The notes beneath the pieces were generated by a model, which was not told where the DNA came from, ran no database searches, and saw only the letters and a list, made by a program, of their open reading frames with translations. Of a stretch of DNA of 64,000 bases, positions 3,086 through 62,788 are shown piece after piece. Position numbers and translations under genes: made by a program. Position 1 is the first letter of the stretch, and the number at the start of each line of letters is the position of its first letter. Origin of the DNA: Typha latifolia (Eukaryota > Streptophyta > Magnoliopsida > Poales > Typhaceae); contig CM034100.1 in NCBI GenBank assembly GCA_019914945.1, forward strand, positions 12,039,096 through 12,103,095. Direction: 5' to 3'.

Positions 3086-4005
3086 GATACGATTCGGACT
3101 TCACCGATGTCATCTCAAGCATAGAGTCACTTTAGGAGTGTCTTTGTTTCATGTTTTAGTGTTTAATTTCTATGAAAATAAGTTTTCTGTAAGTCGCGTT
3201 CGAACGCGGGTGGAGTGTGTTCGAACGCGGTTGTGAACAGGGTTGTGAACGTGGGTGAAGAGTGTGCATTATGTGTTCTAATGCCCCGTTCAAACGCACT
3301 GTGAATGCCTGCATCACGTTTGCAAATCTAGAGAAGTGGAAAACAGGCATGTTTGATCGCGCGTTCGAACGCTTGCATCGCGTTCGCAAATCCAGAGAGG
3401 AGCGAACTCAGTGCGTTCGAATGCGGTCGGCTAAAATTGTATTGTTAGGGTTGATTTTGAGTTGTTGGTTAGCCTCTAAAAGGATGTGGATGGCAACCAA
3501 AGTCATTATTGATTATTAAGAATTGAGTTTTGCCTTACCTCCTTCGTCTTCTTCATTCCATTTCTCTCAATCCCCGGCGACGCCGCTTCTAACCTCCCTC
3601 GACCGGCCAATCACCCTAGCCCCTTAGGGGTGACTCTCTTCTCCCCCTTCTTCCAATCTATCCAACACTTGCCCTAACCCTTCCATCAACCATAACCCTC
3701 CCATTATCACTTTTCACCGGTGCCACCCCATTAACGCCGGTCTACCTTGAACCACCATCACCTAGGATCACGTGCCTCTATCCACGGATCCAAAATAGAC
3801 CACCCTAACATTTGTCCATTAATCAGATGATATCTTGAGATCCCCACATCCGATTCGCCGAAAATAGATTTGTTGGACAACTCTTTTCTAGGGCTACAGC
3901 ATATTAAAATTTCACGTCGATCCAATGGCGGCATATTTCGGGATCTTATTTCAAAGTTCTGTGCCAGATCTATTTCAGATCAGGAAATTGGAAGAGATCG
4001 AACCT
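3086..4005 (+). mobile_element. 3' LTR of gypsy element A (right edge approximate)
   Basis: It follows a purine-rich tract (3054-3080) and starts TGATACGATTCGG. The upstream half holds a cluster of GCGTTCGAACGC palindromes (3192-3430), then a degenerate TATA-like segment (CTCTAAAAGG near 3469), then a pyrimidine-rich transcribed leader. The last part (about 3820-3990) resembles the end of the LTR at 58247-59024. No clean CA end plus PBS is visible, so the right edge is uncertain by tens of bases. Confidence 0.6.
3192..3430 (+). repeat. GCGTTCGAACGC palindrome cluster in LTR A
   Basis: Exact copies at 3196-3207 and 3361-3372, with several one- or two-base variants between them. Most variants are C-to-T or G-to-A changes. 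The cluster ends about 35 bases before the degenerate TATA-like segment of the same LTR. Confidence 0.85.
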
Positions 4006-5451: not shown

Positions 5452-6216
5452 TGATGGCAGGATTCTATGGTACCAAATTGATAGATTATGATACCAATGA
5501 TAGGCTACAGAATGATCCTTCAAGATCTAAATTTATTGCAGGAAGCAGTCCGTGCAACCAAGGGAAAATATTTACTAAATATTCTCTCGTAGTTAGAAAA
5601 TTACGAACCTAAGTGGAATTGATCCGTAACTTATTTATGTTTTTCGTATTTACACCCTTTGCATATTCGAACTGAAACTGGGATGAAAACACAATATATT
5701 GCGGATGATGGTGGTGGTGACGAGTGGAGTGGAAGTTATGGTTATAGATGATAATGGAGATGAGGGTGGATAGGTGATGTTGTTTAAGGATATAAACGAA
5801 GGGGAAGAAGTGGTCGAGATCCCAAAGAAGAGGGATGACTCAACAGACTAAGGAGATTAGAAGTTAGGAGAGACCTTGCCAACGGTAGAGATGGTAGGTT
5901 GGTGAAGAGGGAGGAGGGAGATTAGGGTAGAGAGAAGATAGAAAGATAAGAAACCAATATTTCAATAGCATTCTGATTTTGGCTGCCATCCACACCTTTA
6001 TTGAGGTTAGCCAATAAATTAAAATAATAATTAACCCTAATTCTAGAGAATTCCCGCTGATCGCATTCGAACGTACAAAATACGTTCTTTGTCCATGCGA
6101 ATGCAATGCAGGCGTTTGAATGCGCCCGACCACGTTCAAACGCGACCTATAGGAAATTTATTTTGATGAAAATAAATAACTAATGCAATAAGAAAAGACT
6201 CTAATAAGGTGTATTA
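5452..6216 (-). mobile_element. 3' LTR of the minus-strand gypsy element
   Basis: Its plus-strand left end TGATGGCAGG corresponds to the LTR 3' end, and AAGGTGTATTA at 6206-6216 corresponds to the LTR start TGATACACCTT with one changed terminal base. It carries decayed palindromes (6058-6150) and a mutated TATA (CAATAAAG on the minus strand near 5996-6003). The PPT on the minus strand is AAGGCAAAGTGGGG, just right of the LTR (about 6230-6243). Confidence 0.8.
6058..6150 (-). repeat. Decayed GCGTTCGAACGC palindromes
   Basis: There are four to five variants of the palindrome, none exact, on the upstream side of the mutated TATA of this LTR. Changes are mainly CG to TG or CA. Confidence 0.7.
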
Positions 6217-10210: not shown

Positions 10211-10400
10211 CGATAGCATTTGAACGTGCCCGATTGCGTTTGAACGCATAAAAAACGTTCTCTGTCGATGCGAACACGATGCAGGCATTCGAATGTGCCC
10301 GACCGCATTCGAATGTGCATTTTATTTTCTCTATTTTTGCGAACTTGATGTAGGCGTTTGCAAAGGTGTTCAAACGTGACCCGTTTCGCGTTAGAACACG
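10211..10400 (-). repeat. GCGTTCGAACGC palindrome cluster, decayed
   Basis: At least seven variants, such as GCATTCGAATGT and GCGTTTGAACGC. They lie about 55-245 bases upstream of the LTR's TATA box on the minus strand. Confidence 0.75.
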
Positions 10401-16381: not shown

Positions 16382-17805
16382 TTGTAGCCTATTCTTCTCC
16401 TACTTTTCCTTTTCTTGACGAGCTGAGGTATGCATATACATCTGACCTATATGTTTTGAGATTGTTACAGGAGGTGTTGGATGATCCAAAGTGCCATCCC
16501 GAGTAAGAAAATTGAGACGGTTTGTTGCTTGACCGTAGATGCATTCGGGTGCCCGCAAATGATGGATTGTGGTAGAAATTGTTGAAGCACTTCCACCAAA
16601 CTCCAGAGGCTGGTCATGAGGGTGTCTTGAGGACTTATAGGAGGATATCTCAAAGTTGCACGTGGCCAGGATTGAGGTGAGATGTGAGGAGTTTTGTCTG
16701 TGCTTGCGAAGTCTATCAAAGGGCTAAGACAGCCACATTGAAACCGGCTAGATTACTACAACCTCTATCGATACCGGACCGTATTTGGGAAGATATTTCT
16801 ATGGATTTCATAGGAGGTCTTCTGCTGGTACGTGGTTATTCCATTATTTTTATGGTGGTTGATAGATTGAGTAAGTATGCACATTTTTCTACATTGTCAC
16901 ATTCATTTTCAGTCAAGTTAGTGGCTAAATTTTTTGTTAGAAATGTTGCTGGGTTACATGGCATGCCATGCACGATTGTCTTCAATCATGATTGTGTGTT
17001 TATGAGCATCTTTTGAATGGAGTTTTTTAGATTACAAGGAACTCAATTTAACTTCAGTTTGGCCTACTATCCATAGACGGACTTTTGCTGCTTTGTTGGA
17101 GAGATGCCGAGACGATGGTTGGAGTTCTTACCGTAGGCGGAGTGGTCTTACAACACTGCCTGCCAAAATAGTATTAGCATGACTCCATTTGACGTGGTGT
17201 ATGGGCGCATGGTTCCGACATTACGCACCTATGACTTAGTGGCATCTGCAGATCGGACGAAGGTGGAGTTCGACATGTTGAGGAGGTTTTGTGCCCATCT
17301 TAAACTTGCTCAAAATCATATGAAGCATGTTTATGATCGTAGCCATCAGGAGTAGGAGTTTGACATCGACAGTTGAGTGTTTGTGAGGGTACAACCGTAT
17401 CAACAAGTGACCTTACCCCTGATGTGTAACCAAAAGTTAACACATCGCTACTTTGGTCCGTTTCTAGTGTTAGAGCGTATCGATCCTGTTGCATATCGTT
17501 TAGAGCTGCCAGAGGGGTCGAGTGAGCATCCTGTATTCTATCTTTCATTGCTGAGGGAGCGCATTAGAGATCATGAGGTCGTTGGATCAGCTCTACCGGA
17601 GCCATTGGAGGAGATAGAGATCGTAGAGCTAGTTCGCATACTTGTTGGGCACCGACGACGTCATGGTACCAGATTAGAGATGGAGATTCTAATTGAGTGG
17701 CTTGGCAAGCCATCCGATGAGACGACATGGGAGTTGGAGACGGATATCTTGGAGCGTTTCCCCGACTTTACACCTTGAGGGCAAGGTGGGGGAAGCGTGG
17801 TGGGC
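16382..17805 (+). pseudogene. Gypsy element C: integrase and tail, broken
   Basis: It starts in the RNase H-integrase linker (SPTFPFLDELRYAYTSDLYV) at the exact edge of the Tekay LTR. Integrase follows: HHCC finger near 16580-16730, core MDFIGGLL and VDRLSKYAHF near 16800-16890, a decayed remainder, then FGPFLVLERIDPVAYRLELP near 17450-17510. The tail ends WELETDILERFPDFTP with a stop at 17776-17778. It is homologous to the minus-strand copy at 6240-7680 and has many stops. The 5' half of this copy is not in the window. Confidence 0.85.
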
Positions 17806-18653
17806 TGATACACCTTGCTAGAGTCTATTCTTATTGCATTAGTTAATTATTTTTATTAAAATAAATTTCATGTAAGTCGCATTTGAACGTGGAAGGGGTC
17901 GCGTTCGAACGCCTTTGCAAATTCCTGCAATAGGTACACAAAAATAGAGAACGCAAAATGTGCATTCGAATGCCCGTGTTTGAACGTTTGCATGCATTGA
18001 GAGAGAACGTCTTTTGTGCATTCGAATGCGATCGGGTGCGGTCGAACGCGATCGGTGGGATTCCACTAGAATTAGGATTAATTAATGTTATTTTGGCTTG
18101 TTGGCTAGGCTCTATAAAGGTGTGGATGGCAGCCAAAATTAGAATGCTATTAGAATATTAGTTTCTTGCCTCTCTATCATCTCTCTACCCTAATCTCCCT
18201 CCTCCCTCTTCACCAACCTACCACCTCTACCGTTGGCAAGGTCTCTCCTAACTTTTAATCTCCCTCGTCTATCAACTCCTCCCTCTTCTTTGGGATCTCG
18301 ACCACTTCTTCCCCTTCATCTTTATCCCTTAGATAACATCACCCATCCACCCTCATCTCCATTATCATCCATAACCCTATCTTCCACTCCACTCGTCACC
18401 ACCACCATCATCCGCAATATATCATATTTTTGTCCTAGTTGCAGTTCGAATCGACAAAGGGAATAAATATAAAAAGCGTAGATCAGGGAGCTACGGATCG
18501 ATTACACTTTGTTTCGTAAATTTTGGACTATGGGAGAATATTTGGTGAATATTTTTTCTCGATTGCTCGAATATTTGGTGAATATAAAGGGATCATTCCG
18601 TAACCTATCATTGGTATCAGAGCCTATCAGTTTGGTACCGTAGAACTCTATGA
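17806..18653 (+). mobile_element. 3' LTR of gypsy element C
   Basis: It starts TGATACACCTTG after a purine-rich tract. It holds palindromes at 17876-18056, a TATA box CTATAAAGG at 18112-18120 and the pyrimidine-rich leader. A PBS look-alike (TGGTATCAGAGCC, 18612-18624) lies before the end near 18653. The length of 848 bases equals that of the solo LTR at 50458-51307, so the look-alike belongs to the LTR. Confidence 0.8.
17876..18056 (+). repeat. GCGTTCGAACGC palindrome cluster in LTR C
   Basis: An exact copy at 17901-17912 plus about seven variants. The cluster ends about 55 bases upstream of the TATA box at 18112. Confidence 0.85.
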
Positions 18654-19268: not shown

Positions 19269-20219
19269 TGAAAAACCCCTAGACACAAGTATGTATCTAA
19301 ATACTAGGCAATGATATCACTCGTTCGCTCAAGTAAAAGTCCGATAAAATAGTAAAAAAATGAAAGCAGAGATGAACGCCAAGATTTTAACGTGGAAAAA
19401 CCCAAATGGGAAAAAACCACGGATTTAAACTAGGATCGAAAGCAATCACTAGGATAGTAGCAGTTACAAGACTAACTCACAAAACAACCCGTCGATCCAA
19501 ATGACTTTGTTCCTCTTAGTCTTGCTCGCTAGAACCCACGATTCACTGCTTCTCGTGATTGATGTCCAACCTTAGTAGCCCTCGAGATTGATCTTTCATC
19601 TAGATAGCCCTTAAGATGAAAGATTAAGTTTTGTAGATAAGTGGAACCTTGTTGGTTGAAGAACCTATGTAGCCTCAAGAAGTCTCATTCAATAATACTT
19701 CTTTAACAACCCTAGAGTTAGGGCATCACAATTCTTATATATGATCTCCAAGATAGAGCCAAATCCAAGTCTTATCCGTACTCACGAAAGTCCAAGATTT
19801 TCAAACTTCATTGGTGCGTTTGAACGCGGCCCGGGTGCGTTCGAACGACTTGACTTGATCTCAGGTGCGTTCGAACGGGCCCAAGTGTATTCGAACGCGA
19901 CAACTTGAATTTTTTAGGTTGCATTCGAACACATTTGAGAACGCTGCTCTCGATCTGTGTAAACGCATGTACCCGCGTTCGAACACATTTGTGAACACAG
20001 CTCTCGGTTTGTGTGAACGCAGTACCCGCGTTCGAATGTGTTTGTGAACGCACCGCGTTCGAACACGTATGTGAACGCGGTGTGAACTCAACAACTTTGC
20101 TCCAATAATCTTGCAATTCTTCAAACCAGAGATTTTCTAAACTTGTATAAAGCTCATATACATGCAAAAATACACTTAGAATATTTTGTACACAATTGCT
20201 AACAATTAAAAACCTAATA
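19269..20219 (-). mobile_element. Copia solo LTR with perfect 5-bp target duplication
   Basis: 951 bases of the same LTR family as the nested copia element (22181-31700). It runs from TGAAAAACCCC to CTAATA (CTAACA in the relatives). GATCG flanks it at 19264-19268 and 20220-20224. Removing the LTR and one copy of the duplication closes the LINE reading frame. On the minus strand it holds palindromes at 19813-20085 and a TATA box ATATATAAG near 19735-19743. Confidence 0.95.
19813..20085 (-). repeat. Palindrome cluster in copia solo LTR
   Basis: About eight variants of GCGTTCGAACGC alternate with half-sites in the GTGAACGC style. They sit upstream of the TATA box on the minus strand. Confidence 0.8.
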
Positions 20220-22180: not shown

Positions 22181-22993
22181 TGAAAAAACCCCTAGACATA
22201 AGTATGTATCTAAATACTAGGCAATGATATCACTCGTTCGCTTAAGTAAAAGTCCAAAGAAATATTAAAAACGAAAGCAGAGATGAACGCCAAGATTTTA
22301 ACGTAGAAAAACCCAAATGGAAAAAAACCACGGATACAAACTCGGATCAAAACCAATTACTAGGATAGTAGCAGTTACAAGAAGTCTCAAAAAGTAGGAC
22401 CTTGTTAGTTGAAGAACTGATGTAGCCTCAAGAAGTCTCCTTCAAAATTGCTTCTTCAACCACCCTAGAGTTAGGGCATCACGAAAGTCTTATCCGAACT
22501 CCAAGATAGAGCCAAATCCAAGTCTTATTCGAACTCACGAAAGTCCAAGAATTTCAAACTTCGTTGGTGCGTTCGAATGCGGCCCGGGTGCGTTCGAACG
22601 GGCCCAAGTGCGTTCGAACGCGACAGCCTGAATTTCTCAAGTTGCGTTCCAACGCGTTTGTGAACGCAGCTCTTGGTCTGTGTGAACGTATGTACCCGCG
22701 TTCAAACGCGCTTTTGAACGCAGCTCTCGGTTTGTTCGAGCACGTGAGCCCGTGTTCGAACGCGCTTGCGAATGCAGCTCTCAGTCTATGTGAATATGTG
22801 AGCCCGCGTTCGAACGCGCTTATGAACGCAGTGTGAACGCGGTATGAACGTGATGTGAACTCATAAACTTTTCTCCAATAATCTTGCAATTCTTCAAACT
22901 AGAGATTTTCTAGACTTGTATAAAAGCTCATATACATGTATAAATACACTTAGAATATTTTATACGCAATTGCCAACAATTAAAAACCTAACA
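22181..22993 (-). mobile_element. 3' LTR of the nested copia element
   Basis: TGAAAAAACC to CCTAACA, 813 bases. It holds palindromes at 22565-22860. The TATA-bearing segment present in the other copies is replaced here (about 22478-22500). The PPT on the minus strand, CCAAAGGGAGAG, lies directly right at 22996-23008. Confidence 0.9.
22565..22860 (-). repeat. Palindrome cluster and 54-bp tandem repeats in copia 3' LTR
   Basis: Exact GCGTTCGAACGC at 22610-22621 and 22806-22817. From about 22640 a unit near 54 bp repeats three to four times; each unit has one palindrome, a CAGCTCT-like segment and a spaced GTGAACGC half-site. Confidence 0.85.
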
Positions 22994-23476
22994 ATCTCTC
23001 CCTTTGGCAATTTCTGACAAAATATCTAAATTACAAGATATTACAAAGAATTCAAAATGAGCAGTCAACAAATCTAGAATATTTAGCACATCAATCCCTG
23101 CAAATAAAAATATACCGATCCAAGATCAAGTGAAAATAACTAGAAGTGAAAAAATAATTCAAACACAAGTTCTCAAGCAAACACAAGTTCAGAATTTCTT
23201 CAAGCAAAGTTATTAGCCAGTAAACTTAAACTAGTAAACTCCCTCTACGCCAGTATTCCCCCTACACCAGTAAACTTCTAAACTCTAAACTCACTCCGAA
23301 CATCTAAACTCTCCCCTTTTTGACACAAATACCAAAGACTAAGAACTAGGAGGAAACTGACGATGAAGAATCGACAAAACGGAGTCGAGCACGGTCCCCT
23401 AATGAGCTTGCTCAGCTCGTAAATCATTCACGGTCGAATTAAGTCCTACACCTGAGTGCTAAGCTGATCAAAACGG

Positions 23477-24325
23477 TCAGAGAACTGTGGTAACTCCCCC
23501 CTCAGGATGAGATGAGTCATCGTCAGAACTGTCGAGGTGAGATGGACGTCCAGCGGCGGAAGAGGAGGATGGCTTGAGAGGTGACAGCTGATCATGAGCT
23601 TGACTCCGCTTAAGTGTTATCTGATCCAATGGTTTTTGAGCAGTAAGCGAAGCTTCTGAGGCATCCACGCGCACCCATTTCTGAGTGCACAGTTTGGTAA
23701 TAAAAATACCAAACAACAACCCTTCACGAGGCGCTTCTTTCTGTGTAGCTGTCAAAATGGAATCGTATATCACAGCAGCCAAATCAATAGAAATCCTCGA
23801 CAGCATCGCATGAAGGAGGAAGGCACGATCTGGACTAATACTTGAATGTCGAGTCTTAGGGGTGACGTTGTAAAGACAAAACAGGTGTAGCATGCGAGCC
23901 ACTGACGTCAGTTTCGCATGATCTTTAACATCAGGAAGCAGATCAGAAGATCGGTATTGGAACTCACCATCAGGAAGTTGTAGTTCAGCAAGAATGACAT
24001 CAGGGTCCAAATATATCGAAACCCCACGGACTATAGAACGTATACAACGTTCCAAAACAGTGGCATTGCTAAAAGATTTCCTGACAACGTCCACATATAA
24101 TGTCCCGTTCATCCGACACATGGACAACCATCCTCGCTCAGTAAATATTTGTTCCATCCCCAAGGCGCAAAAATCAGAAATGACAACTGATCGTTCACAA
24201 ATAATAGGTCGAGTGCCAAAATTATATTTATATCGCCCTGCAGCAGTAGATGTAGAAAACTTGGGAGCCGAAGATGGTGACGAAGGCGGCCTTGGTTTCT
24301 TAGAAACTGCAGCTTTTTTAGGCAT
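23477..24325 (-). CDS. Env-like / putative plant transposon protein ORF of copia element
   Basis: 282 codons, uninterrupted. I chose the ATG at 24323-24325; the upstream in-frame extension has no ATG. The N-terminus is basic and Ser/Pro-rich (MPKKAAVSKKPRPPSSPSS). The middle carries ICERSVVISDFCALG, then FTERGWLSMC and YVDVVRKSF, then RGVSIYLDPDVILAELQLPD. This layout matches, as I recall it, the 'putative plant transposon protein' and Athila ORF1-like domains found in the third ORF of plant retroelements. The C-terminus is Ser/Asp-rich. I see no clear signal peptide or membrane segment, so 'envelope' is a positional name only. It lies downstream of RNase H by about 1.5 kb, in the same orientation, preceded by promoter-like elements at 24747-24850. 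Confidence 0.75.
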   Translation of the reverse strand: MPKKAAVSKKPRPPSSPSSAPKFSTSTAAGRYKYNFGTRPIICERSVVISDFCALGMEQIFTERGWLSMCRMNGTLYVDVVRKSFSNATVLERCIRSIVRGVSIYLDPDVILAELQLPDGEFQYRSSDLLPDVKDHAKLTSVARMLHLFCLYNVTPKTRHSSISPDRAFLLHAMLSRISIDLAAVIYDSILTATQKEAPREGLLFGIFITKLCTQKWVRVDASEASLTAQKPLDQITLKRSQAHDQLSPLKPSSSSAAGRPSHLDSSDDDSSHPEGGVTTVL

Positions 24326-24746
24326 TCTAGAGAAAAAAATAAGTCGCAAGATTCAACATAAAAAGTTCTAGAAACCATGAAGACCCTAAGTGAAATCCAT
24401 CTTCCACTTGAAAAAACTAAGTTATCATGTTCAATCGCACAAGAAACATCAAGATATTAACTTTAACATGATCAAAACTTGAAAACGCACAAAATCAATC
24501 AAGATCAAGAGACTCAATTAAATAAAAAAATAAGAAAATTGATGTATGATCATATCTCGCAAAAAGTAAAGAAAAACTTGAAGTTTCGGCCGAAAGACGC
24601 TAGATTCGAAGGAGAACTATCCTCTAAACAGGTTTGAAGTGAAAAATTTGATGAAAAAGATGAAGATCTTGAAGATTTGGGAGAAAGAAAATTAAGGGTT
24701 TCTAGGGTTTGGAAAATAAAAGATGAAAACCCTTGGGTTTGGATGC

Positions 24747-24850
24747 ACTATATAAAGAACCCCTGAGTGCGTTCGAACGCACCAGTCTACGCGTTCGAAT
24801 GCGCCAAACACCGTGTTCAAACTCAAGAAGTCTGCGTTCGAACGCCCCTT
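24747..24850 (-). promoter_or_regulatory. Putative internal promoter upstream of env-like ORF
   Basis: On the minus strand the order is palindrome GCGTTCGAACGC (24834-24845), a decayed copy, GCATTCGAACGC (24791-24802), exact palindrome (24769-24780), TTTATATAG TATA-like box (24748-24757), then a pyrimidine-rich leader with an AAACCCTAG telo-box-like element near 24701-24711. The ATG of the env-like ORF is about 420 bases further on; TTTTTTTCTCTAG just before it could be a 3' splice site. The TATA-like sequence is near-palindromic, so its direction is not certain from sequence alone. Confidence 0.55.
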
Positions 24851-25862: not shown

Positions 25863-26280
25863 CTAAAGAAGTACGAAGATACTCAAATCTCTGTAAATCC
25901 AAAGGTTTGCAAACAAATTTCCTAACTGTTTCTCCGTCTCAACATGTTTCAGTGCTATTATTTTGTCTTCAACTAACTCGCGTATAAAATGATGTTGGAT
26001 ATCAATATGTTTTGTAGGCGAGTGTTGAACATGATTTTTCGATATATTAATAGCACTCATGTTGTCACAATAAAGCACCATAGTATCTTGTTCAAAGCCG
26101 TAATCTTTGACTATCTGTTTTATCCATAGTAACTAAGAACAACAACTTCCCGCTGCAATGTACTCGGCCTCCATAGTAGATAAAGATATTGAGTTTTGTT
26201 TCTTACTATGCCAAGCAACTAGATTGTTTCCAATATAAAAACATCCACTTGAGGTACTTTTTCTATCACCTACCTAATCA
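25863..26280 (-). pseudogene. copia RNase H (nested element)
   Basis: On the minus strand: a KSTSSGCFYIGNN block near 26225-26270, the STMEAEYIAAGSC block near 26145-26185, a stop near 26133, then YCDNMSAINISKNHVQH near 26025-26075 and KHIDIQHHFIRELVEDK near 25970-26010. It removes the RNA strand during cDNA synthesis in intact elements. One stop and a changed C-terminus make it non-functional as part of a polyprotein. Confidence 0.85.
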
Positions 26281-27347
26281 AAATCTGTGTATCCAGATAT
26301 GATAGCACCCGAGATATAAGTAAACCAAATGCCTAAATCAACTATGCCACTGACATATTTTATAATACGTTTCACAGCAAACAAATGTGTCTCCTTAAGT
26401 TCAGACTGAAACTTAGCACACACACCGACGCTAAATGCAATGTCTGGTCTACTAGTAGTTAAGTACAAAAGACTACCAATAATGCTCCTATATAGTGTCT
26501 GATCAACACTTTTTCCTGAAATATCCTTATCTAGTTTGGTAGTTGTACTTATAGGAGTTCTAGCATATTTTGCATTTTCTAAACCGAATTTAGTCACAAG
26601 ATCCTTAGCATACTTGGTTTGAGCGATAAATATCCCTCTTTCCAATTGAGTAATTTGAAGTCCCAAAAAGAACTTCAACTCACCCATCACGCTCATCTCA
26701 AAATGACTGTGGATGAGATCTGCAAACTCCTTAGCTAAAGATTGACTCGTTGCCTCGAAGACAATGTCATCCACATATATTTGTGCCATAACTAAACTCT
26801 TGTTCACACGTCTAATGAACAATATCTTGTCCACTCCCCCTCGACTGATCCCCGCATGCACTAAAAAAGTGGTCAACTTCTCATACCACGCTCTTGGAGC
26901 TTGTTTTAGCCCGTAGAGGGCCTTTTTCAATTTAAACACATGAGAAGGAAATTTATGATCTTCGAACCCCATAGGTTGTTCTACAAAAACATCTTCATTC
27001 AAAGTATCATTCAAGAAAGCACTTTTAACATCCATTTGAAACAATTTAAATTTTAAATGACAAGCAATAGCAAACAGTATACGAATAGACTCTAATCTAG
27101 CAACAGGAGCAAATGTCTCATCAAAATCTATACCCTCAATCTGAGTATATTCTTGTGCTACTAGTCTAGCTTTATTTCGAACTATATTGCCATGTTCATC
27201 ACTTTTATTCTTGGATATCCATTTTGTTCCAATGACGTTCACATTATTAGGTCTAGGAACTAAATACCAAACATCATTCCTAGAAAATTGCTCTAATTCC
27301 TCATGTATAGCATTAACCCAAGAATCGTCTAACAATGCTTCGTTCAC
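26281..27347 (-). pseudogene. copia reverse transcriptase (nested element)
   Basis: Open for about 355 codons. Blocks: NDVWYLVPRP near 27250, GTKWISKNK near 27195-27230, ARLVAQEYTQIEGIDFDETFAPV near 27100-27165, LFQMDVKSAFLN near 27010-27045, KLKKALYGLKQAPRAWYEK near 26880-26940, catalytic YVDD at 26766-26777, and ELKFFLGLQI near 26650-26680. All core catalytic residues are present. Neighbouring integrase and gag are broken, so it is called a pseudogene as part of pol. Confidence 0.88.
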
Positions 27348-27399
27348 ATTTTTAGGTTTAAAAAAAGATGTATAACAAGTAAATGATACTTCACTTTGG

Positions 27400-28912
27400 A
27401 TTTATCGTCTTGTCTTAATTGGTTCATTCACGTCTTTGATCATTTGTGATAGTGGATGATTTAATTTCACTTTGGCAGATGACTCTGGTACGTTGCAGTC
27501 ATCTTTGTTCATTTCAACTTTGTCCTCGTCCTGATTCTCAATTTCCAGATCAAGCTCCTTTTCAATTTCTTCGTCATGCAGAAACAAAAATAGGAGTAGC
27601 TTCAGTTATATCAGCAGTGGATTCATCTATCATAATATTAGCAGATTCCATAACAGTAGAAGTTTCAAAATTAAATACTTTGTAGACTCTACTATTATTA
27701 GAATACCCTAAGAAGATGCCCTCACTACTTCTAGTGTCAAATTTAGTCAAATGTTCTTGATCACGCAAGATATAGTATTTACTACCAAAAACTCAAAAAT
27801 ATTTAATGCTAGGTTTCTTACCTTTTCAGATTTCATATGCAGTCATTTTTGTACCTAGTCTAAGATAAACACGATTTATCACATGTACCGCTGTATTAAC
27901 CGCCTCTGCCCAAAACCTTTGAGTAACATTTTTAGCGTGAAGCATAAACCTAGCCATTTCCTACACAACTCGGTTTTTTCTTTCCACAACCCCGTTCTGT
28001 TGTGAAGTTATAAGAGCTAAAAATTCATGTTGAATACCAAGAGAATCGCAAAATATAAAAAAAATTCATTTTCAGATTCTCTATCATGATTAGAACGAAT
28101 CCTAACTAGGGTAGTAGATTTTTCATTTTGCAATTTTAAGCATAGTGATTTAAAAACTTCAAACGTTTCAGACTTCTCACGTAAAAAGGCAACCCAGGTA
28201 TATCTAGAATAATCATCGACCATTAAGAATATATAGCGTTTACCTCCAAGACTTTCAATTTTTGATGGACCCATCAAGTCCATGTGAACTAATTGTAGCA
28301 CACGGTCAGTGGTAGCTGCATTTACTTTCTTGTATGAGATCCTAATTTGTTTTCCAATTTGACACGAATCGCACACTCTTTTTGACATTTCTTTCATCTT
28401 AGGTATTCCTCTTACCACTTCTTGTTTGGACAGATTAAATAATTCATTATGATTCACATGTCCAAGACGTTGATGCCAAAGATCTGCAATGTCGAAAGAG
28501 GCACTGTTACATTTCAGTTTATATGAAGTTCGAACAACATAGCAATTATCAGATGTTTTAGATCTATAACATATAACATTACCATCATGATCTAGAATAG
28601 TACAATCATTTTTGGAGAATTTTACCTCATAATCTTCATCATAAAATTGACTGATGCTTAGTAGATTTGCTTTCAAGCCCTTAACATAAAGAACATTTTC
28701 AAAAATAGTAACCCCCGGAGAACTTACCTTTCCTTTACCTATTACCTTGGATGAATTACCATCTCCGAATGTCACAACTCCCCCTTCATATTTTTCAAGA
28801 TTAGAAAATAAGGACTTGTTACTCAACATATGTCTAGAACAACCACTGTCTAAATACCACAAATCAAAATTTAAAGCTTTCAAGGCTGTATGCACAACAT
28901 AACATTTCAAAT
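27400..28912 (-). pseudogene. copia protease and integrase (nested element)
   Basis: On the minus strand: protease DSG at 28842-28850 (WYLDSGCSRHM), then the pre-integrase motif LWHQRLGHVNHNELFNL near 28435-28485 and CDSCQIGKQ near 28350-28375. The integrase core has VHMDLMGPSK near 28255-28290 with the first Asp; the second catalytic Asp, usually in RxDxGxEF, reads RSNHDRE near 28085-28105, an Asp-to-Asn change. The Glu region (QQNGVVERK) near 27975-28000 lies in a shifted frame. The C-terminus is FDTRSSEGIFLGYS near 27705-27745. Confidence 0.85.
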
Positions 28913-28959
28913 CACTTTTCTTAACCCATATGGCCTTTGTTTTAATCCTATAAATGAAA

Positions 28960-30663: not shown

Positions 30664-30697
30664 GCATATCTTATCTCTCTCTACGGGTGAGAGAACC

Positions 30698-30710
30698 TAC
30701 TCTGATACCA
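30698..30710 (-). other. Primer binding site of nested copia element
   Basis: The minus strand reads TTGGTATCAGAGT next to the LTR end at 30713. It fits initiator-Met tRNA priming. Confidence 0.85.
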
Positions 30711-30712
30711 AT

Positions 30713-31700
30713 TGAAAAAACCCATAGACACAAGTATGTATCTAAATACTAGGCAATGATATTACTCGTTCGCTTAAATAAAAGTCCAAAGAAATATTAA
30801 AAACGAAAGCAGAGATGAACGCCAAGATTTTAACGTGGAAAAATACAAACAGGAAAAAACCACGGATCCAAACTCGGATAAAAAATAATCACTAAGATAG
30901 TAGCAGTTACAAGACTGACTCACAAAATAACCTGTCGATCTAAACGACTTTGTTTCTCTCAGTCTTGCTCGCTAGAACCCACGATTCACTGCTTCTCGTG
31001 ATTGATGTCCAACATCAGTAGCCCTTGAGATTGATCTTTCGTCTAGATAGCCCTTAAGATAAAAGATTAAGCTTTTTAGAAGAGTAGGACCTTGTTAGTT
31101 GAAGAACTGATGTAGCCTCAAGAAATCTCCTTCAATATTGCTTTTTCAACCACCCTAGAGTTAGGGCATCACAATACTTATATATGATCTCCAAGATAGA
31201 GCCAAATCCAAGTCTTATCCGAACTCACGAAAGTCCAAGAATTTCAAACTTTGTTGGTGCGTTCGAACATGGCCCGGGTGCATTCGAACGGCCTGACTTG
31301 ATCTTAGGTGCATTAGAACGGGCCCAAGTGCATTCGAATGCGACAGTTTGAATTTCTCAGGTTGCGTTTGAACGCGTTTGTAAACGCAGCTCTCGGTCTG
31401 TGTGAACGCATGTACCCGTGTTTGAACGCGCTTGTGAACACAGCTCTCGATCTGTGTGAACGCCTGAGCCCTTGTTCGAACATGCTTGTGAATGCAGCTC
31501 TTGGTCTGTGTGTACGCGTGAGCCCACGTTCGAACGCGCTTGTGAACGCAGTGTGAACGTGATGTGAACTCATAAACTTTTCTCCAATAATCTTGTAATT
31601 CTTCTAATTAGAGATTTTCTAGACTTGTATAAAAGCTCATATACATATATAAATACACTTAGAATATTGTACACAATTGCCAACAATTATAAACCTAACA
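30713..31700 (-). mobile_element. 5' LTR of the nested copia element
   Basis: 988 bases, TGAAAAAACCC to CCTAACA on the plus strand. On the minus strand, palindromes (31255-31560) precede the TATA box CATATATAAG at 31178-31187. CCACGTTAAAATC in the transcribed part is also seen in other copia LTRs in this window. Confidence 0.92.
31255..31560 (-). repeat. Palindrome cluster with 54-bp tandem repeats in copia 5' LTR
   Basis: The CAGCTCT-like anchor recurs at 31387, 31441 and 31495, an exact 54-bp period. Each unit holds one GCGTTCGAACGC variant. Further variants run to 31261, about 70 bases from the TATA box. Confidence 0.9.
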
Positions 31701-34878: not shown

Positions 34879-35163
34879 TGTTGGGTTTTACTTAACTAAG
34901 TTGGTTTGGGCTAGCCCCTGAAATGACTTACTTGGCTAATAAGTGGTTGAGTTAGACTTTAGTTAAGGGGGTACTTTTGCTCATGCCACTTAATGAAAAA
35001 GAAAAGAGAAAAGGAGATTTTTTTTTCTCTATATACAACAAGGGTTTGTAACTAGAGGATTTTTGGTTAGGATCAAGACACAAGGATTTTCTTCTTCATA
35101 TCTACAAGGGTATTCTTGCTTGAAGAAGATCTCTTGGGTGGGAAAGAGAGCTCATTTCCAACA
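34879..35163 (+). mobile_element. 5' LTR of copia element 2
   Basis: TGTTGGGTTTT to TTCCAACA. TATA-like TCTCTATATACAAC near 35027. No palindrome cluster. Confidence 0.92.
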
Positions 35164-35223
35164 AGTGGTATCACAGCCTTGGTTAGTGCACATAAGGTGT
35201 TTGACAAAATTCCCTAGAGAGCT

Positions 35224-35985
35224 ATGGAAGTGAATACAAGTAGAATGATAAGCTTAAATGATGCCAATTGAAGGACATGGAAGGGCAAGATGCTAGACTT
35301 GTTTTATTGCAAAGAAATGCATGCTACATTGGAAGGTGATGATGCTAAGCCAAATAATATGTCGGAAGATAAGTGGAAGCTCTTGAACCGGCAATGTGTT
35401 GGTTTCGTTCAGCAGTGGTTGGAGGATAATATCTACCATCATGTGGAGAATGAGACATCGGCTAGCACATTATGAAAGAAACTAGAAGGCTTGAATGAGA
35501 GGAAAAGTGCAAATAACAAATTTTATGTCTTTAAGAAGTTTGTTAATTTGAAGTACAAGGAGGGCATACCAATGGCGGATCACTTGAACGAAATGCAAAG
35601 TTTAATGAATGAGCTTGCAACCATGAAGATGGTATTGGATGATGAATTCCAAGCACTTCTACTCTTAAGTTCTCTTCTAGAAAGTTATGAAACATTGGTG
35701 GTTACTCTCACAACAACGGCATTGAACGGAGTAGTGACAATGAACATGGTGAATGCTAGTTTGCTTGAGAATGAAACAAGAAAGAAGAATATAGATTCTT
35801 CACACTCACAAGTTCTTGTTTTGAAAAATAGAGAGAGAAGCTAAAGTCATTTTTCTCATAATCGTGATAAATCTAAAGGTAGATCCAAGTTAAGAAAAGG
35901 TATACATTGTTACAATTGTGGTAGATCCGGTCACATGAAAAGAGATTGCAAGTTTCCAAGAAAGAAAAATTAAAAGAAAAGTGAA
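35224..35985 (+). pseudogene. copia element 2 gag
   Basis: The ATG is at 35224-35226. A stop occurs near 35271, then a long open stretch (DLFYCKEMHATLEGDDAK near 35296) broken by a stop near 35473. Next come LYKEG-like and DHLNEMQSLMNELATMKM near 35578-35635. The CCHC knuckle CYNCGRSGHMKRDC lies near 35908-35952. The family forms the particle shell. It would need stop bypass at two or more sites to be made. Confidence 0.85.
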
Positions 35986-36079
35986 GGCAAACAAGAGGAT
36001 AATGATACCACCGCGGTTTCGGATGAAGAATTGATGATATTATTTGCTTGTGACGAAACTTGTGTTGCCATTGCAAACC

Positions 36080-37390
36080 AAGACTTGGATTGGATTATTG
36101 ATAGTGGAGCCTCATGTCATTCTACCCCAAGGTTGGATTTCTTCACTTCTTATAAGGCGGGAGACTTTGGTTTGTGAAGATGGGCAACAATAGAGTTGTA
36201 AAAATTGTGGGCTTAGGCGATATATATCTTGAGACTAGTTTAGGCAATAAGCTAGTACTCAAGGATATGAGGCATATTCCGAATCTTCATTTGAATTTAA
36301 TCTCCACTAGCAAATTGGACGATGATGGTTTTGAAAATCGGTTTGTTAATGAAAATTGGAAGCTACTCAAAGGTGCACTTATATTAGCAAGGGGAGAAAA
36401 TGTTGTTCACTTTACCAGATGCAAGCTAAGGTGTACAATGGGCAAATTAATACCATAGAAAAAGAGACATCTATGGATCTATGGCATAAGCGGCTCAGTC
36501 ATATGAGCGAGCGAGACCTCCAAGTACTTGCAAAGAAAGTACTCATTTCCAATGTCAAAAGTATGTCATTAAATTGGTGTTCTCATTATATTATTGGAAA
36601 GCAAAGTAGACTTTGAATGAAGTTTTGGCATTTTCAAGCACTTTCATGCAAAAGTTGAAAGGGAAATTAGAAAACCTTTGAAATGTATTCGGACGGACAA
36701 TGGTAGAGAATATAAGGGTCTATTTGAAATCTATTGCAAAGAGCATGGTATCCGATGTGAGAAGATGGAAAGCGATACTCCTCAACATAATGGTGTGGCG
36801 GAGCGGATCAATCACACTATTTGTGAAAAAATGAGATGTATATTGTCACATGCCAAGTTGTCAAGATCATTTTGGGGAGAGGCAATGTGGACTGCATGCT
36901 ATTTGATTAACTGGTCTCCTTCAAAGCCTTTGAATGGTGATTATCCAGAAAATGTGTGGACCGGTAAATATGCCTCTTTCAAGCACTTGAAGATATTTAG
37001 GTGCAAAGCTTTTGTTCATGTTCCAAAAGGTTAAAAAAGTAAACTTGATGACAAGTCAAGGCCATGTATCTTCTTGGATTATAGAGGAGAGTTTGGTTAT
37101 CGGCTTTGGAATCCAAAAACTAAGAAGTTAGTTAGAAGCCAAGATGTTGTATTCTTTGAAGACCAAACTATTGAAGATGTTGACAAGATTGAGAAGCCAC
37201 GAGCTAGTGAAGGTGAACTTGTTGATTTGAGGCATATTTCTCCTCCGGTGATTCATGATGAAGGGGGAGATATTCATGAAGATGAACATGAAATGTTTGG
37301 TAAAAATCCTCTTGAAGATTCTAGCCAACAAGGAGAACCTACACATGAGCAATCTTCTCAAGATCAACCTCCACCGGTACCGTAAGTTAG
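36080..37390 (+). pseudogene. copia element 2 protease and integrase, deleted core
   Basis: Protease DSG at 36100-36108 (WIIDSGASCHST), pre-integrase LWHKRLSHMSERDL near 36478-36520, then GKQSRL near 36597-36615 and a stop. The first part of the integrase core, including the first catalytic Asp, is deleted. The sequence rejoins near 36620-36680 at KCIRTDNGREYKG, which holds the second Asp, and continues through PQHNGVAERINHT near 36782-36820. The C-terminal extension is acidic (to about 37385). Confidence 0.85.
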
Positions 37391-37442
37391 AAGATCTATA
37401 AGGGTCTCATAACCATCAAGAAAATACTCTTGTAATGAGTAT

Positions 37443-38250
37443 GTGATGCTTAATGATGTTAGAGAGCCGGAAACATTTCAAGAAGCAAATATGCATGAAC
37501 AAAAGGACAAATTACAAAGGGCTATGCAAGAGGAGATTGATTCTTTGCATAAAAATGAGACATATGATTTGGTGAAGCTACCAAAGGGTCGAAAAGCTTT
37601 GAAGAATAAATGGGTGTTTCGATTGAAGAATAAAGGTGATAATCAAGTTAAGTACAAGGCACGACTAGTTGTCAAAAGCTTTAAGCAACGAAAAAGTATT
37701 GACTTTGATGAATTTTTTTCACCAGTTGTTAAAATATCTTCTATCCAGATTATTCTAAGTCTTGTTGCATGCCTACACTTAGAATTGGAGCAATTAGATG
37801 TCAAAATCGCTTTCCTTCATGGTGATTTGAAGGAGGAGATCTACATGGAGCAACCTCAAGGTTTTGTTCATAAGGGCAAAGAAAACTTGGTTTGCAAGCT
37901 AAAGAAGAGTTTGTATTGTTTGAAGCAAGCACCTCGGCAATGGTATAAGAAGTTTGATAGTTTTATGATGAGCCACAAATATAAAAGAACAAATGCGGAT
38001 CATTGTGTTTATGTCAAGAAGTTTGCGGATGGTGATTTTATCATTCTTTTGCTGTATGTAGATGATATGCTTCTAATTGGTAAGGATGTAGAGAAGATCA
38101 AGAAATAGAAGAAAGATTTGAGTAAATCTTTTGACATGAAGGATTAGGGACCGGCAAAGAAAATTTTGGACATCGAAATTAAACGTGATAGGAAAGCAAA
38201 GAAGTTGTAGTTATCATAAAAAAAAATATTAAGCAAATTTTAAAGAGATT
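37443..38250 (+). pseudogene. copia element 2 reverse transcriptase
   Basis: Open from 37443 to 38108: LPKGRKALKNKWVFRLK near 37579-37630, YKARLVVKSF near 37650, LEQLDVKIAFLHGDLKEEIY near 37788-37845, CLKQAPRQWYKK near 37918-37955 and catalytic YVDD at 38055-38066. A stop at 38106-38108 and further stops to 38220 break the linker. Confidence 0.88.
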
Positions 38251-39007
38251 CAATATGAATAATTCTAAGCTGGTTGGAACACCATTTGCGGGTCATTTCA
38301 AATTGAGCTCAAGGCAATGTCCTTCGAATGAGAAGGATAAAATTAAAATGAAGAGTTTTCTCTACTCCTCCGCCGTAGGGAGTTTGATGTATGTAATGGT
38401 TTGCACAAGGCCGGATATAGCATATGCAGTTGGTATGGTTAGTAGATTTCTCTCCAACCTGGGAAAAGAGCATTGGGTAGCCGTGAAATGGATGACGAGA
38501 TATTTAAGAGGCACTTCTAATTTATGTCTATGTTTTGGAGGTGGAAAATCTCCATTGGTAGGCTACACGGATTCCGATATGGCCGGTGATGTCGATACTA
38601 GACGGTCTACTTCGCGATACATATTCACTTTTAGAGGGGGAGTCGTATCATGGCAATCAAGGCTTCAAAAGTATGTTGTTCTTTCAAGCACCGAAGCGGA
38701 GTATATAGCCGCTACCGAAGCTTGCAAAGAAATGTTGTGGTTGAAGAACTTTTTACAAGAATTGGGTTTGGAGCAAAATGGATATGTCATCCATTATGAT
38801 AGTCAGTGTCATTGATCTTAGCAAGAATATCATGCTAGAACCAAACACATTGATGTCTACTACCATTGGATCCGGGATGTTTTGGAGAAGCAATGGTTGA
38901 GGCTTGTGAAGATCTCCACGATCTATAATTCATCGGATATGATGACCAAGGCTCTTACAAAGGTGAAGCAAGAACTTTGTAGAGACTTAGTGTGTATTGA
39001 TGTTTAG
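38251..39007 (+). pseudogene. copia element 2 RNase H and C-terminus
   Basis: YSSAVGSLMYVMVCTRPDIA near 38362-38420, YTDSDMAGDVDTRRSTSRY near 38565-38622, LSSTEAEYIAATEACKEMLW near 38683-38740. A stop at 38813-38815 interrupts the block; HIDVYYHWIRDV near 38848-38880 and MMTKAL near 38940 follow. The frame ends at 39005-39007. Confidence 0.85.
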
Positions 39008-39079
39008 TGAGTATTGGTATTTGGGCATGAAATTCATTGAGAGAATGAAGACTCCCCTCATGGGTCTAGAGGGGGAGAT

Positions 39080-39371
39080 TGTTGGGTTTTACTTAACTAA
39101 GTTGGTTTGGGCTAGCCCCATGAAGTGACTTACTTGACTAATAAATAGTTGAGTTAGACTTTAGTTAAGAGGGTACTTTTGCTCATGCCACTTAGTAAAA
39201 AAGAAGATAAGAGAAAATGAGGTTTTTTTCTCTATATACAACAAAGGTTTGTAACTAGAGAATTTTTGGTTGGGATCAAGACACAAGGATTTTCTTCTTC
39301 ACATCTATAAAGATGTTTTTGCTTTAAGAAGATCTCTTGGGTGGGAAAGAGAGCTCCTTTTTTTACCAACA
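39080..39371 (+). mobile_element. 3' LTR of copia element 2
   Basis: It mirrors the 5' LTR with few differences. It ends TACCAACA, followed by GTATA. Confidence 0.92.
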
Positions 39372-50457: not shown

Positions 50458-51307
50458 TGATAGGGTCTACGGTACCAAACTGATAGGCTCTGATACCAAT
50501 GATAGGTCACGGAATGATCTCTTCAAGATCTAAATTGATTGTAGGAAGCAGTCCGCGCAATCGAGGGAAAATATTTACTAAATATTCTTTCATAGTCAAA
50601 AAATTACAAACTAAGTGGAATCGATCCGCAACTCTCTAATCTACGTTTTCCGTATTTATGCATTTGACGGATTCAAACTACAACTGGGACGAAAATATGA
50701 TATATTGTGGATGATGGTGGTGGCGACGGGTGGAGTGTAAGTTAGGGTTATGGATGATAATAGAGATGAGGGTGAATGAGTGATATTGTTTAAGGGATAA
50801 ATATGAAGGGGAAGAAGTGGTCGAGATCCCAAAGAAGAGGGAGAACTCGACAGACGAGGGAGATTAGAAGTTAGGAAAAACCTTGCCAGCGGTAGAGGTG
50901 GTAGGTTGGTGAAGAGGGAGGAGGGAGATTAGGGTAGAGAGAAGATAGAAAAGCAAGAAACCAATATTCCAATAGCATAATAGTTTTGGGTGCCATCCAC
51001 ACCTTTATAGAGGCTAGCCAACAAGCCCTAATAATAATAATTAACCCTAATTCTAGTGGACTCCCAACGATCGCGTTCAAACGCACAAAAAACATTCTCT
51101 GTTGATGCGAACGCGATATAGGCGTTCAAACATGCCCAATCACGTTCGAACGCGACGCAGGCGTTCGAACGCGCCCGACCGCGTTCTCTGTTTTTACAAA
51201 CCTAATGCAGGCATTCGCAAGGGCGTTCGAATGCAACCTACAAGAATTTTATTTTAATAAAAATGAATAACTAATTCAATCAGAAAAGTCTCTAACAAGG
51301 TGTATCA
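50458..51307 (-). mobile_element. Gypsy solo LTR (850 bp), nested
   Basis: TGATAGGGTCTACGG to GGTGTATCA. Same family as 17806-18653 and 9579-10472. It contains a PBS look-alike near its 3' end (minus strand, 50484-50498) as part of the LTR. Flanks GCATA and ATATA match at three of five bases. TATA CTATAAAGG near 51004-51012 on the minus strand. Confidence 0.9.
51065..51235 (-). repeat. Palindrome cluster in solo LTR
   Basis: Exact GCGTTCGAACGC at 51161-51172 and about six variants, upstream of the TATA box by 55-220 bases on the minus strand. Confidence 0.85.
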
Positions 51308-56741: not shown

Positions 56742-56817
56742 CAGAGTTTTAAATCCACCCAATTCTTCGATTTTTTTTTCTTCTATTATTCCTTGTTTCT
56801 TCCTCGATTGTGTTGAG

Positions 56818-62051: not shown

Positions 62052-62788
62052 TGATAGGTTATGGAACGATCCCTTCAAGATCTGAATTTATTGTAGGAAG
62101 CAGTCCGTGCAACCGAAGGAACATATTTATCAAATCGATTCGTAACTCCCTAATCTACATTTTTCATATTTACGCCCTCCGCAGATTTAAACTACAACTG
62201 GGACGAAAATACCATATAATGCGGATGATGGTGGTGGTGACGGGTGGAGTGGAAGTTAGGGTTATAGTTGATAATGGAAATGAGGGTGGATTAGTGATAT
62301 TGTTTAATGGATAAAGATGAAGGGGAAGAAGTGATCAAGATCCCAAAGAAGAGGGAGGACTCGATAGACGAGGAAGATTAGAAGTTAGGAGAGACCTTGC
62401 CAATGGTAGAGGTGGTAAGTTGGTGAAGAGGGAGGAGGGAGATTATAGTAGAGAGAAGATAGAGAGGAAAGAAATTAATATTCCAATAGCATTATAATTT
62501 TGGTTATCATCCATACCTTTATAGAGGCTAGCCAACAAGCCCTAATAATAATAATTAACCCTAATCCTAGTGGAATCCCGCCGATCGCGTTCGAACGCAT
62601 AAAAACCGTTCTCTGTTGATGAGAACGTGATGTAGGCATTCGAACGCGCCCGACCATGTTCGAACGTACATTTCGCATTCTTTGTTTTTGCTAACCTGAT
62701 GTAGGCGTTCGCAAGGGCGTTCGAACGCGACCTACAGAAATTTTATTTTAATGAAAATAAATAACTAATGTAATAATAAAAGAGTCGT
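62052..62788 (-). mobile_element. Truncated gypsy LTR (family of 50458-51307)
   Basis: It starts at TGATAGGTTATGG, which equals the inner position of the longer copies, just before their PBS look-alike. It is truncated at the other end near 62788, before GTGTATCA. TATA box CTATAAAGG on the minus strand near 62517-62525. Confidence 0.8.
62583..62732 (-). repeat. Palindrome cluster in truncated LTR
   Basis: Exact GCGTTCGAACGC at 62587-62598 and 62717-62728, with four variants between, upstream of the TATA box on the minus strand. Confidence 0.85.

Follow-up and report, generated by a model that had tools for sequence, protein, structure and literature searches.

A 12-bp palindrome clustered upstream of TATA boxes in gypsy and copia retrotransposons of Typha latifolia, candidate core of a composite enhancer module

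The 64,000-nucleotide stretch of Typha latifolia DNA considered here (the window, C2:12039096-12103095 of a 214.2 Mb genome) harbors gypsy and copia retrotransposons whose long terminal repeats (LTRs) carry clusters of one palindromic 12-mer, GCGTTCGAACGC, built around the core TTCGAA. The ten exact copies counted in the original prediction were all recovered at the same coordinates, and the dozens of variants with one to three changes that it had described correspond to 31 sites with at most one mismatch (0.02 expected from 100 dinucleotide shuffles), 47 with at most two and 72 with at most three. The clustering of these sites was likewise borne out, except for one site at 4094, since the other 46 of the 47 sites with at most two mismatches fall into the ten clusters given below with their sites, their exact copies and the distance from the last site to the first T of the TATA box. 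Two open reading frames (ORFs) associated with the gypsy copies are also included.

17901..18049, forward strand: gypsy (chromovirus) LTR cluster; 4 sites with at most two mismatches, 1 exact; first T of the TATA box at 18113, 63 bp
3196..3424, forward strand: gypsy-family cluster; 5 sites, 2 exact; no TATA box within 160 bp
6063..6143, reverse strand: gypsy LTR cluster; 3 sites, 0 exact; no TATA box within 160 bp
10236..10399, reverse strand: gypsy LTR cluster; 2 sites, 0 exact; TATA box at 10152, 83 bp
51073..51234, reverse strand: gypsy LTR cluster; 4 sites, 1 exact; TATA box at 51009, 63 bp
62587..62728, reverse strand: gypsy LTR cluster; 3 sites, 2 exact; TATA box at 62523, 63 bp
19816..20066, reverse strand: cluster in a Sirevirus-like LTR (about 19269-20219); 8 sites, 0 exact; TATA box at 19741, 74 bp
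22569..22817, reverse strand: cluster in the 3′ LTR (22181-22993) of a Sirevirus-like element; 8 sites, 2 exact; no TATA box within 160 bp
31259..31537, reverse strand: cluster in the 5′ LTR (30713-31700) of a Sirevirus-like element; 6 sites, 0 exact; TATA box at 31184, 74 bp
24769..24845, reverse strand: internal cluster of a Sirevirus-like element; 3 sites, 2 exact; TTTATATA 14 bp downstream
17377-17775: chromodomain/SH3_Tf2-1 ORF directly upstream of the gypsy LTR at 17806; Chromo E 3e-6
1362-2171: RVT_1 ORF upstream of the cluster 3196..3424

A genome-wide scan counted 14,944 exact copies of GCGTTCGAACGC, against about one expected under a first-order Markov model, and not a single copy in the genome of the same 12-mer read backwards. 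An unbiased sample of 20 stretches of 10 kb (200 kb in all, at 3 and 9 Mb of C1-C9 and at 3 Mb of C10 and C12, positions fixed without regard to the motif) held 21 exact copies against 0.0009 expected, and the motif headed the over-represented 12-, 10- and 8-bp palindromes among those with at least five occurrences. All 21 were clustered, that is, accompanied by another site with at most two mismatches within 250 bp, as were 47 of the 49 GTTCGAAC sites; clusters of at least two sites were present in 9 of the 20 stretches, and outside them lay four single sites with two mismatches. Altogether, 90 exact sites were individually inspected (21 from the sample, 10 from the window and 59 from targeted loci), and 89 of them were clustered. 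A satellite is not needed as the source of the genome count, since the density in the sample, 105 per Mb, is higher than the genome mean of 70 per Mb.

Forty-one clusters (10 from the window, 16 from the sample and 15 from targeted places on C1, with L002, which overlaps L001, left out of all cluster counts) were grouped by their flanks alone, which yielded a gypsy LTR family of 19 and a Sirevirus-like copia LTR family of 14, together with two small groups, C and D, of two clusters each, two clusters from a copia internal segment, one representing a further family named after locus L026, and one weak pair; 15 of the 16 sample clusters fell into these families. The clusters therefore occur in at least three retroelement lineages, namely chromovirus gypsy, Sirevirus-like copia and Tork-like copia. 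The gypsy family was assigned to the chromoviruses because the LTR at 17806 directly follows the ORF with SH3_Tf2-1 and Chromo domains, and RVT_1 was found in another copy. Groups C and D are LTR-like and start with TGATAC like the gypsy LTRs, and no protein domain was found in the surroundings of group C. At least 40 LTRs match the L026 family (40 having been scored out of 242 candidates), and the two members of a pair lie about 4.9 kb from each other; the RVT_2 and SH3_retrovirus domains of one internal piece (L046) point to a third copia lineage distinct from Sirevirus, presumably Tork-like, a name given from resemblance. This family was out of reach of the original prediction, and the six further LTRs of it that were retrieved all carried clusters, the smallest with 5 and the largest with 14 sites at up to two mismatches. 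The Tork-like LTR with its array at L026:5226-5447 follows a NAC (NAM domain) gene (L026:6109-7494) whose end is about 0.6 kb away, so that the array adjoins a host gene.

The position of the clusters relative to the promoter was assessed in 46 of them (40 of the 41 and the six further Tork-like LTRs), by searching for TATAWA or TATATA within 160 bp downstream of the last site; L018:2025-2281, with two weak sites and no family, was left out of the oriented analyses. It had been claimed that the clusters sit upstream of the TATA box, and this was observed for seven of the ten in the window, those at 3196, 6063 and 22569 having no TATA box in that range. Among the gypsy clusters with a TATA box, the last site lay 62-65 bp from it in 9 of 11 and 48 and 83 bp from it in the others; in the Sirevirus-like LTRs, the distance was 74 bp in all 10 having one (of 14); group C showed 87 and 88 bp; four of the seven Tork-like clusters showed 31 bp and the others 29, 21 and 20 bp; and both internal clusters showed 14 bp. 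The distance between cluster and TATA box is therefore fixed within a family and different between families, and the previously proposed range of 50-75 bp describes most gypsy and Sirevirus-like LTRs with a TATA box, but not the Tork-like LTRs (20-31 bp), group C or the internal clusters. Since the Sirevirus-like LTR is AT-rich, the mere presence of a TATA box says little there, and it is the constant 74 bp that carries the argument; the opposite-strand control is uninformative for TATATA, which is self-complementary. Among the Tork-like LTRs, the array-TATA distance in L050 and L051 (20 and 21 bp) differs from that in L026 and L047-L049 (31 bp) by 10-11 bp, approximately one helical turn.

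The motif is unevenly conserved. The four A/T positions T4, T5, A8 and A9 differed in 2.9% of comparisons between gypsy copies, 0.9% between Sirevirus copies and 1.0% between Tork copies, against 14.5%, 11.4% and 6.5% for the A/T positions of the flanks; the choice of sites according to motif similarity lowers the values of every motif position and inflates TT/AA conservation. The CpG positions of the motif differed in 19-22%, 18-19% and 8-9% of cases, respectively, and the central CpG decays like the other CpGs. When sites are instead selected on their eight G/C positions, allowing up to one mismatch, the contrast between A/T and G/C positions also stands: of 225 such sites, 190 keep all four T/A letters, 9 show a single change and 26 show at least two, these last being taken mostly as chance matches in other registers. 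Among 310 sites with at most three mismatches, A8 is the least kept (8.4% changed, against 1.0-2.3% for the other three). In the 269 sites of the form TTNNAA, the centre was CG in 210, TG in 25, CA in 23 and another dinucleotide in 11. At the CpGs, C-to-T and G-to-A changes prevail, a pattern that reads as the mark of methylated DNA, and the clusters are rich in CpG (observed/expected ratios of 1.36-2.15 against 0.54-0.71 in the flanks; 1.73 against 0.70 for the Sirevirus-like LTRs).

This conservation bears on what the palindrome might bind. The invariant TT and AA around CG, TG or CA fit the consensus TTYRAA of the cell cycle genes homology region (CHR), which is bound by the CXC domain of LIN54 according to the part of PMC4974476 considered here, and the T. 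latifolia genome encodes CXC domains (9 domain matches), so that a CXC-domain (CPP/TCX, LIN54-like) factor can be envisaged as the bound protein. It is an improbable candidate, however: the optimum of human LIN54 has Y=T or R=A (TTTGAA, TTCAAA), which makes the dominant TTCGAA a weaker form, and the CHR element is found in cell-cycle promoters and lacks any counterpart of the GC arms (same part of PMC4974476). Moreover, the change from CG to TG or CA is explained equally plainly by methyl-cytosine decay, and plant binding data were found neither in the portion of PMC8500230 considered nor among the literature matches listed. Other known sites were compared as well, the tRNA B box reading GWTCRANNC, the VOZ site GCGTN7ACGC and the heat-shock element TTCnnGAA. 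An RNA polymerase III B box was rejected for GTTCGAAC, as the 12-mer breaks the consensus at the last C and ARAGORN reported no tRNA in the window; the VOZ site was rejected on arm spacing, which is 4 here and not 7, and the heat-shock element on the gap, which is 0 here.

The same conservation is relevant to the idea that the palindromes act as RNA, forming structures in the U3 region at the 3′ end of the transcript that feed small RNAs and silencing. The clusters do fold well, with minima per 110 nt of -33 to -64.5 kcal/mol against shuffled means of -26 to -43, and four of the six clusters tested pass the maize threshold of -40. There is also a precedent argued for maize Sireviruses, whose palindromes were described as small-RNA hot spots (Bousios 2016, as summarised in the part of PMC10760457 considered); those elements share with the present ones a palindrome-rich LTR cis-region able to form hairpins and differ from them in the palindrome itself, and the 2023 maize survey, in the same part, reports no obvious structural peak in Ty3 elements, whereas gypsy LTRs carry the clusters here. 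Against this idea, the remaining two clusters fall short of -40, a value that is passed (-40.8) by a window in the flank of the 17901 cluster. Structure requires complementarity rather than the same 12 letters in three lineages, a loop-free 12-mer alone would be expected to make a poor hairpin, and constraint is stronger on the A/T core than on the G/C arms, the opposite of what stem stability predicts. An RNA role of this kind is thus considered unlikely.

The sites within the clusters recur at a preferred distance. Of 214 gaps between adjacent sites, 78 measured 19-22 bp, compared with 5 of 12-18 bp and 3 of 23-29 bp, and this pattern was found in all six contexts, including the Tork-like and internal clusters, despite spacers of unrelated sequence. 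Genome-wide, exact copies were paired 276 times at 20-21 bp, 6 times at 25-26 bp, 24 times at 30-31 bp, 1,127 times at 53-55 bp and 215 times at 15-16 bp; 49 of the 50 listed pairs of the last class lie 15 bp apart, as do two exact copies in the gypsy LTR L024:6871-7108, with the spacer GGT. Strict helical phasing of the pairs was dropped as an explanation, since pairs at 15-16 bp are also common. Split half-sites GCGTTC/GAACGC were enriched as well: 15, 8 and 8 were counted at 10, 11 and 12 bp in the gypsy clusters (0.3, 0.6 and 0.3 in shuffled sequence), and 38 at 12 bp in the Sirevirus-like ones (0.4 shuffled), with further enrichment at other distances, e.g., 20 and 30 bp in gypsy and 2 and 34 bp in Sirevirus. 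This enrichment might be a by-product of the repeated arrays or might reflect the same dimer binding halves placed one turn apart.

Array size varies within a family, from 5 to 14 sites among six Tork LTRs, and L004 has 16 sites, which raises the question of whether the arrays are a passive minisatellite, i.e., functionless unstable tandem repeats that came to lie in U3 by chance. The free variation in copy number, the decay of most copies and the predominance of 53-55 bp pairs among the counted spacings are what such repeats would show. Nevertheless, the core, the orientation to the TATA box and the pair spacing are alike in several lineages, and the TT/AA positions are constrained, so that a wholly passive origin appears very improbable.

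The relationship between the families is recorded in the spacers between the sites. The original prediction had presented one motif in otherwise unrelated LTRs, and the families indeed have in common, outside the clusters, only CT-rich stretches of about 24-31 bp; this description is nonetheless too simple, because inside the clusters a composite module with similar spacers is repeated. When long spacers of gypsy and Sirevirus-like LTRs were aligned on the transcription strand, their best scores averaged 31.0, compared with 19.3 after shuffling (z 23) and with 21.0 when the opposite strand was used; z was 18.9 without L003, the most gypsy-like Sirevirus copy, and 7.2 when the half-sites GCGTTC/GAACGC were masked too. 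These z values are overstated, as shuffling preserved the base composition without preserving that of dinucleotides and the spacers of one family depend on each other, and the opposite-strand controls are the safer comparison. The element ACAGAGA (at most one mismatch) occurred in 19 of 27 gypsy spacers, 35 of 38 Sirevirus-like spacers, all 4 of group C, both of group D, 1 of 3 of L026 and in the single internal spacer not at all (0 of 1), compared with 1 of 75 spacers overall on the opposite strand (none in gypsy, one in Sirevirus). The Tork-like and Sirevirus-like spacers share a 14-base identity, CAGACAGAGAGCAG being common to both (z 7.2). These likenesses suggest that gypsy and Sirevirus-like LTRs share one composite module, obtained through exchange or very old inheritance, and that the Tork-like LTRs are linked to the Sirevirus-like ones.

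Between the two origins that had been proposed, convergent capture of one site and transfer of a promoter module, transfer is the better supported for gypsy and Sirevirus, as their spacers are alike on the same strand only and ACAGAGA recurs in both, and an exchange of the module between these two lineages, in whichever direction it may have gone, is fairly probable. Convergence would mean that gypsy, Sirevirus and Tork elements each evolved arrays for the same host factor, present where transposition pays. Such a history would account for the restriction of the likeness outside the clusters to short CT-rich stretches, for Tork and gypsy spacers that resemble each other no more than shuffled ones (z 1.0), for the weak likeness to Sirevirus of groups C and D when half-sites are masked (z 2.7 and 1.1, with 4.0 for L026, from only 4, 2 and 3 spacers, respectively) and for the recurrence of 19-22 bp pairing among unrelated spacers in Tork-like and internal clusters. 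It does not account for the strand-specific likeness of gypsy and Sirevirus spacers, for their shared ACAGAGA, for the 14 bases common to Tork and Sirevirus or for L003, whose spacer scores 51 with gypsy and 34 with other Sireviruses. Convergence as the whole explanation is thus possible but rather unlikely, although the Tork-like arrays may be partly convergent. The alike inter-motif spacers also go part of the way towards the outcome that the original prediction had named as contradicting it, gypsy and copia clusters forming one recombined segment with longer shared flanks, and they favour an exchange of a composite enhancer module. Only 2 of 52 Sirevirus spacers scored higher with gypsy, those of L003 and L019:6502 (36 versus 25), and none of the 41 gypsy spacers preferred Sirevirus. 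The cluster L003:1377-1512 belongs to a Sirevirus LTR about 73% identical to the window copies, and with its gypsy-like spacer it is a possible recombinant.

The copia element at 22181-31700 provides the most complete setting for the module. It appears Sirevirus-like from its RVT_2, gag-pre-integrase, extra ORF, primer-binding site, purine tracts and AT/TG junction. As in the genus Sirevirus, copia pol is followed by an ORF, here of the Transposase_32 type, between pol and the 3′ LTR, which corresponds to an envelope gene in position. The Sirevirus polypurine tract AGGGGGAG precedes an AT/TG junction; here, several tracts and the AT/TG junction are present, and the terminal tract AAAGGGAG is followed by AGAT. 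The features of this element, and of a second copia element, are as follows.

30700..30711, reverse strand: primer-binding-site-like TTGGTATCAGAG beside the 5′ LTR, read directly
28017..28910, reverse strand: gag-pre-integrase/integrase piece
26274..27347, reverse strand: copia reverse transcriptase RVT_2, E 2.2e-69
23477..24346, reverse strand: envelope-position ORF, Pfam Transposase_32 (PF20167), E 1.1e-22
22990..23330, reverse strand: purine tracts AAAGGGAG, AGAGGGAG, AGGGGGAA and AAGGGGAG with AT/TG junction, before the 3′ LTR, read directly
34879..39360, forward strand: second copia element with short LTRs (283-column alignment, 91% identity), assigned to copia by one reverse-transcriptase word

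The second copia element, claimed to be free of the motif, serves as a negative control and had no site even at three mismatches. The earlier description of the first element was extended by a third copia LTR with motifs (22181-22993) and corrected for 24769-24845, which lies inside the element, before its last ORF, and not in an LTR. Beside this internal cluster, TTTATATA lies at 24754, and the ATG of the Transposase_32 (third) ORF follows the cluster at about 430 bp. The arrangement is repeated at L019, where a cluster at L019:504-579 is accompanied by a match to the ORF at L019:1038-1898 (72% identical). A homolog search with the ORF returned one relative, P0121. The internal cluster and its TATA box are a candidate second promoter for the third ORF.

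Much of this anatomy is already known from Sireviruses with other palindromes. The so-called RM boxes, LTR palindromes upstream of the TATA box, were described in 2010, and the part of PMC2829016 considered here states that they also precede the envelope gene, an internal promoter not having been conclusively identified, and that among the copia elements compared they occurred only in Sireviruses. The present clusters are alike in having a dyad palindrome in at least eight copies per element (in the window element, 6 and 8 LTR sites with at most two mismatches, plus 3 internal ones), in lying within the upper LTR half, a short way before the TATA box (74 bp, 10 of 14), in being CpG-island-like and in supplying extra copies before the envelope-position ORF (24769-24845 before 23477-24346, and also in L019). 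They differ in the core, TTCGAA instead of CGG-CCG (the exception in Table 3 of that part of PMC2829016 being Tnd-1, ACAATCGATTGT), in the presence of the identical motif in chromovirus gypsy and Tork-like copia elements, and in the TATA box directly behind the internal cluster, which offers a concrete candidate for the third-ORF promoter proposed by the 2010 study.

The third ORF also invites comparison with VANC, the protein encoded by Arabidopsis VANDAL DNA transposons, and with the possibility that a transposon-encoded protein provides anti-silencing or activation at the palindromes, other families borrowing the factor of one. Tandem arrays of short motifs in non-coding parts of an element resemble VANC targets in the portion of PMC5735166 considered, the extra ORF of the Sirevirus-like element sits right behind its own motif cluster, and the CpG richness of the clusters is in keeping with such a role. 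The VANC motif, YAGTATTAY, is nevertheless non-palindromic, present in one orientation, specific to one family and bound by the protein that the element itself encodes (PMC5735166 and PMC10398659, in the parts considered), while here a palindrome is found in several families. Among the loci then collected, a search found the extra ORF only in the window element and L019, and the motif CpGs change from C to T and from G to A like those of the flanks, as expected for copies that were once methylated. To our knowledge, no DNA-binding role has been described for Transposase_32 proteins. An element-encoded factor is accordingly regarded as a highly improbable explanation.

The evidence is best explained by a protein-binding enhancer, because the site is symmetric, its distance to the TATA box is fixed, the A/T core is kept, several lineages carry it and a second TATA box with the motif precedes an ORF. 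The palindrome is therefore proposed, with a probability of roughly 0.6, to form the core of a composite enhancer module that has been amplified in tandem within the U3 region of T. latifolia LTR retrotransposons. A dimeric DNA-binding protein would recognise TT-(CG, TG or CA)-AA flanked by GC arms, as a two-fold symmetric site, and when bound would raise transcription from the downstream TATA box. The arrays would grow and shrink by tandem duplication, the unit consisting of one or two palindromes and an ACAGAGA-like spacer element. The module would serve chromovirus gypsy, Sirevirus-like copia and Tork-like copia LTRs, gypsy and Sirevirus holding it as one exchanged or inherited unit, and a short form of it would act as the second promoter of the Sirevirus third ORF. 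Binding of a protein at the palindrome is likely, and the host origin of that protein is, if anything, a still safer assumption; that activation is its main role can be put forward with somewhat less assurance.

Several observations weigh against the enhancer proposal. No TATA box was found within 160 bp in 8 of 19 gypsy, 4 of 14 Sirevirus and both group D clusters, and a TATA-like word on the same strand was present at most 160 bp upstream of 8 of the 14 Sirevirus clusters and of one cluster each in gypsy (of 19) and Tork (of 7), the 6 other clusters having none. Pairs at 15-16 bp are nearly as many as those at 20-21 bp, and a two-turn spacing is therefore not obligatory. Part of the apparent TT/AA conservation stems from the choice of sites mentioned above, and one exact 12-mer, L037:932, stands alone, with no site of at most two mismatches within 250 bp and none of at most three within 400 bp. 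In addition, the motif turned up in no host gene promoter, although no systematic search of such promoters was made.

The literature offers few counterparts. The Myc1 element GGGGTTCGAACCCC, predicted in host promoters of Medicago (PMC4274732, in the part considered), has the core GTTCGAAC and dyad symmetry in common with the present motif and differs in its flanks; that part names no protein as binding it. The strings CGTTCGAACG, GTTCGAACGC, GCGTTCGAAC and GCGTTCGAA led to no plant-LTR report among the matches listed, and a TTCGAA match in PMC6300899 was discarded as a primer. No report of one palindrome common to gypsy and copia LTRs was present among the literature matches listed (titles and beginnings of abstracts). 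As far as that literature shows, four findings are apparently new: that gypsy and two copia lineages carry an identical palindrome within one genome, how many copies of it there are, that spacers are shared, and that a TATA box follows the internal cluster.

A regulatory exchange between retrotransposon superfamilies, if true, would imply that families under common control evolve together as a network instead of each as a lineage of its own. In its furthest form, a single enhancer cassette would have moved between Ty3/gypsy chromoviruses and Ty1/copia elements (Sirevirus, Tork), joining the families into one co-regulated network under a single protein with some fifteen thousand perfect sites, hardly any of them outside retroelements, a picture that is for now tentative and somewhat doubtful. 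Irrespective of this, a genome with so many perfect sites offers a clean setting in which to look for the protein driving plant retrotransposons.

Apart from the retroelements described, the window contains an inverted repeat (39693-40097 and 42555-42959, about 405 bp, 95% identity) with more inverted copies in between, forming a fold-back structure. It also contains an AP2/ERF gene of the CRF/ERF118 type (56722-57525), whose best-scoring relatives besides itself are Typha proteins with 41-42% identity; at its 3′ end, a segment of about 105-113 bp is directly duplicated with 89% identity (57508-57742).

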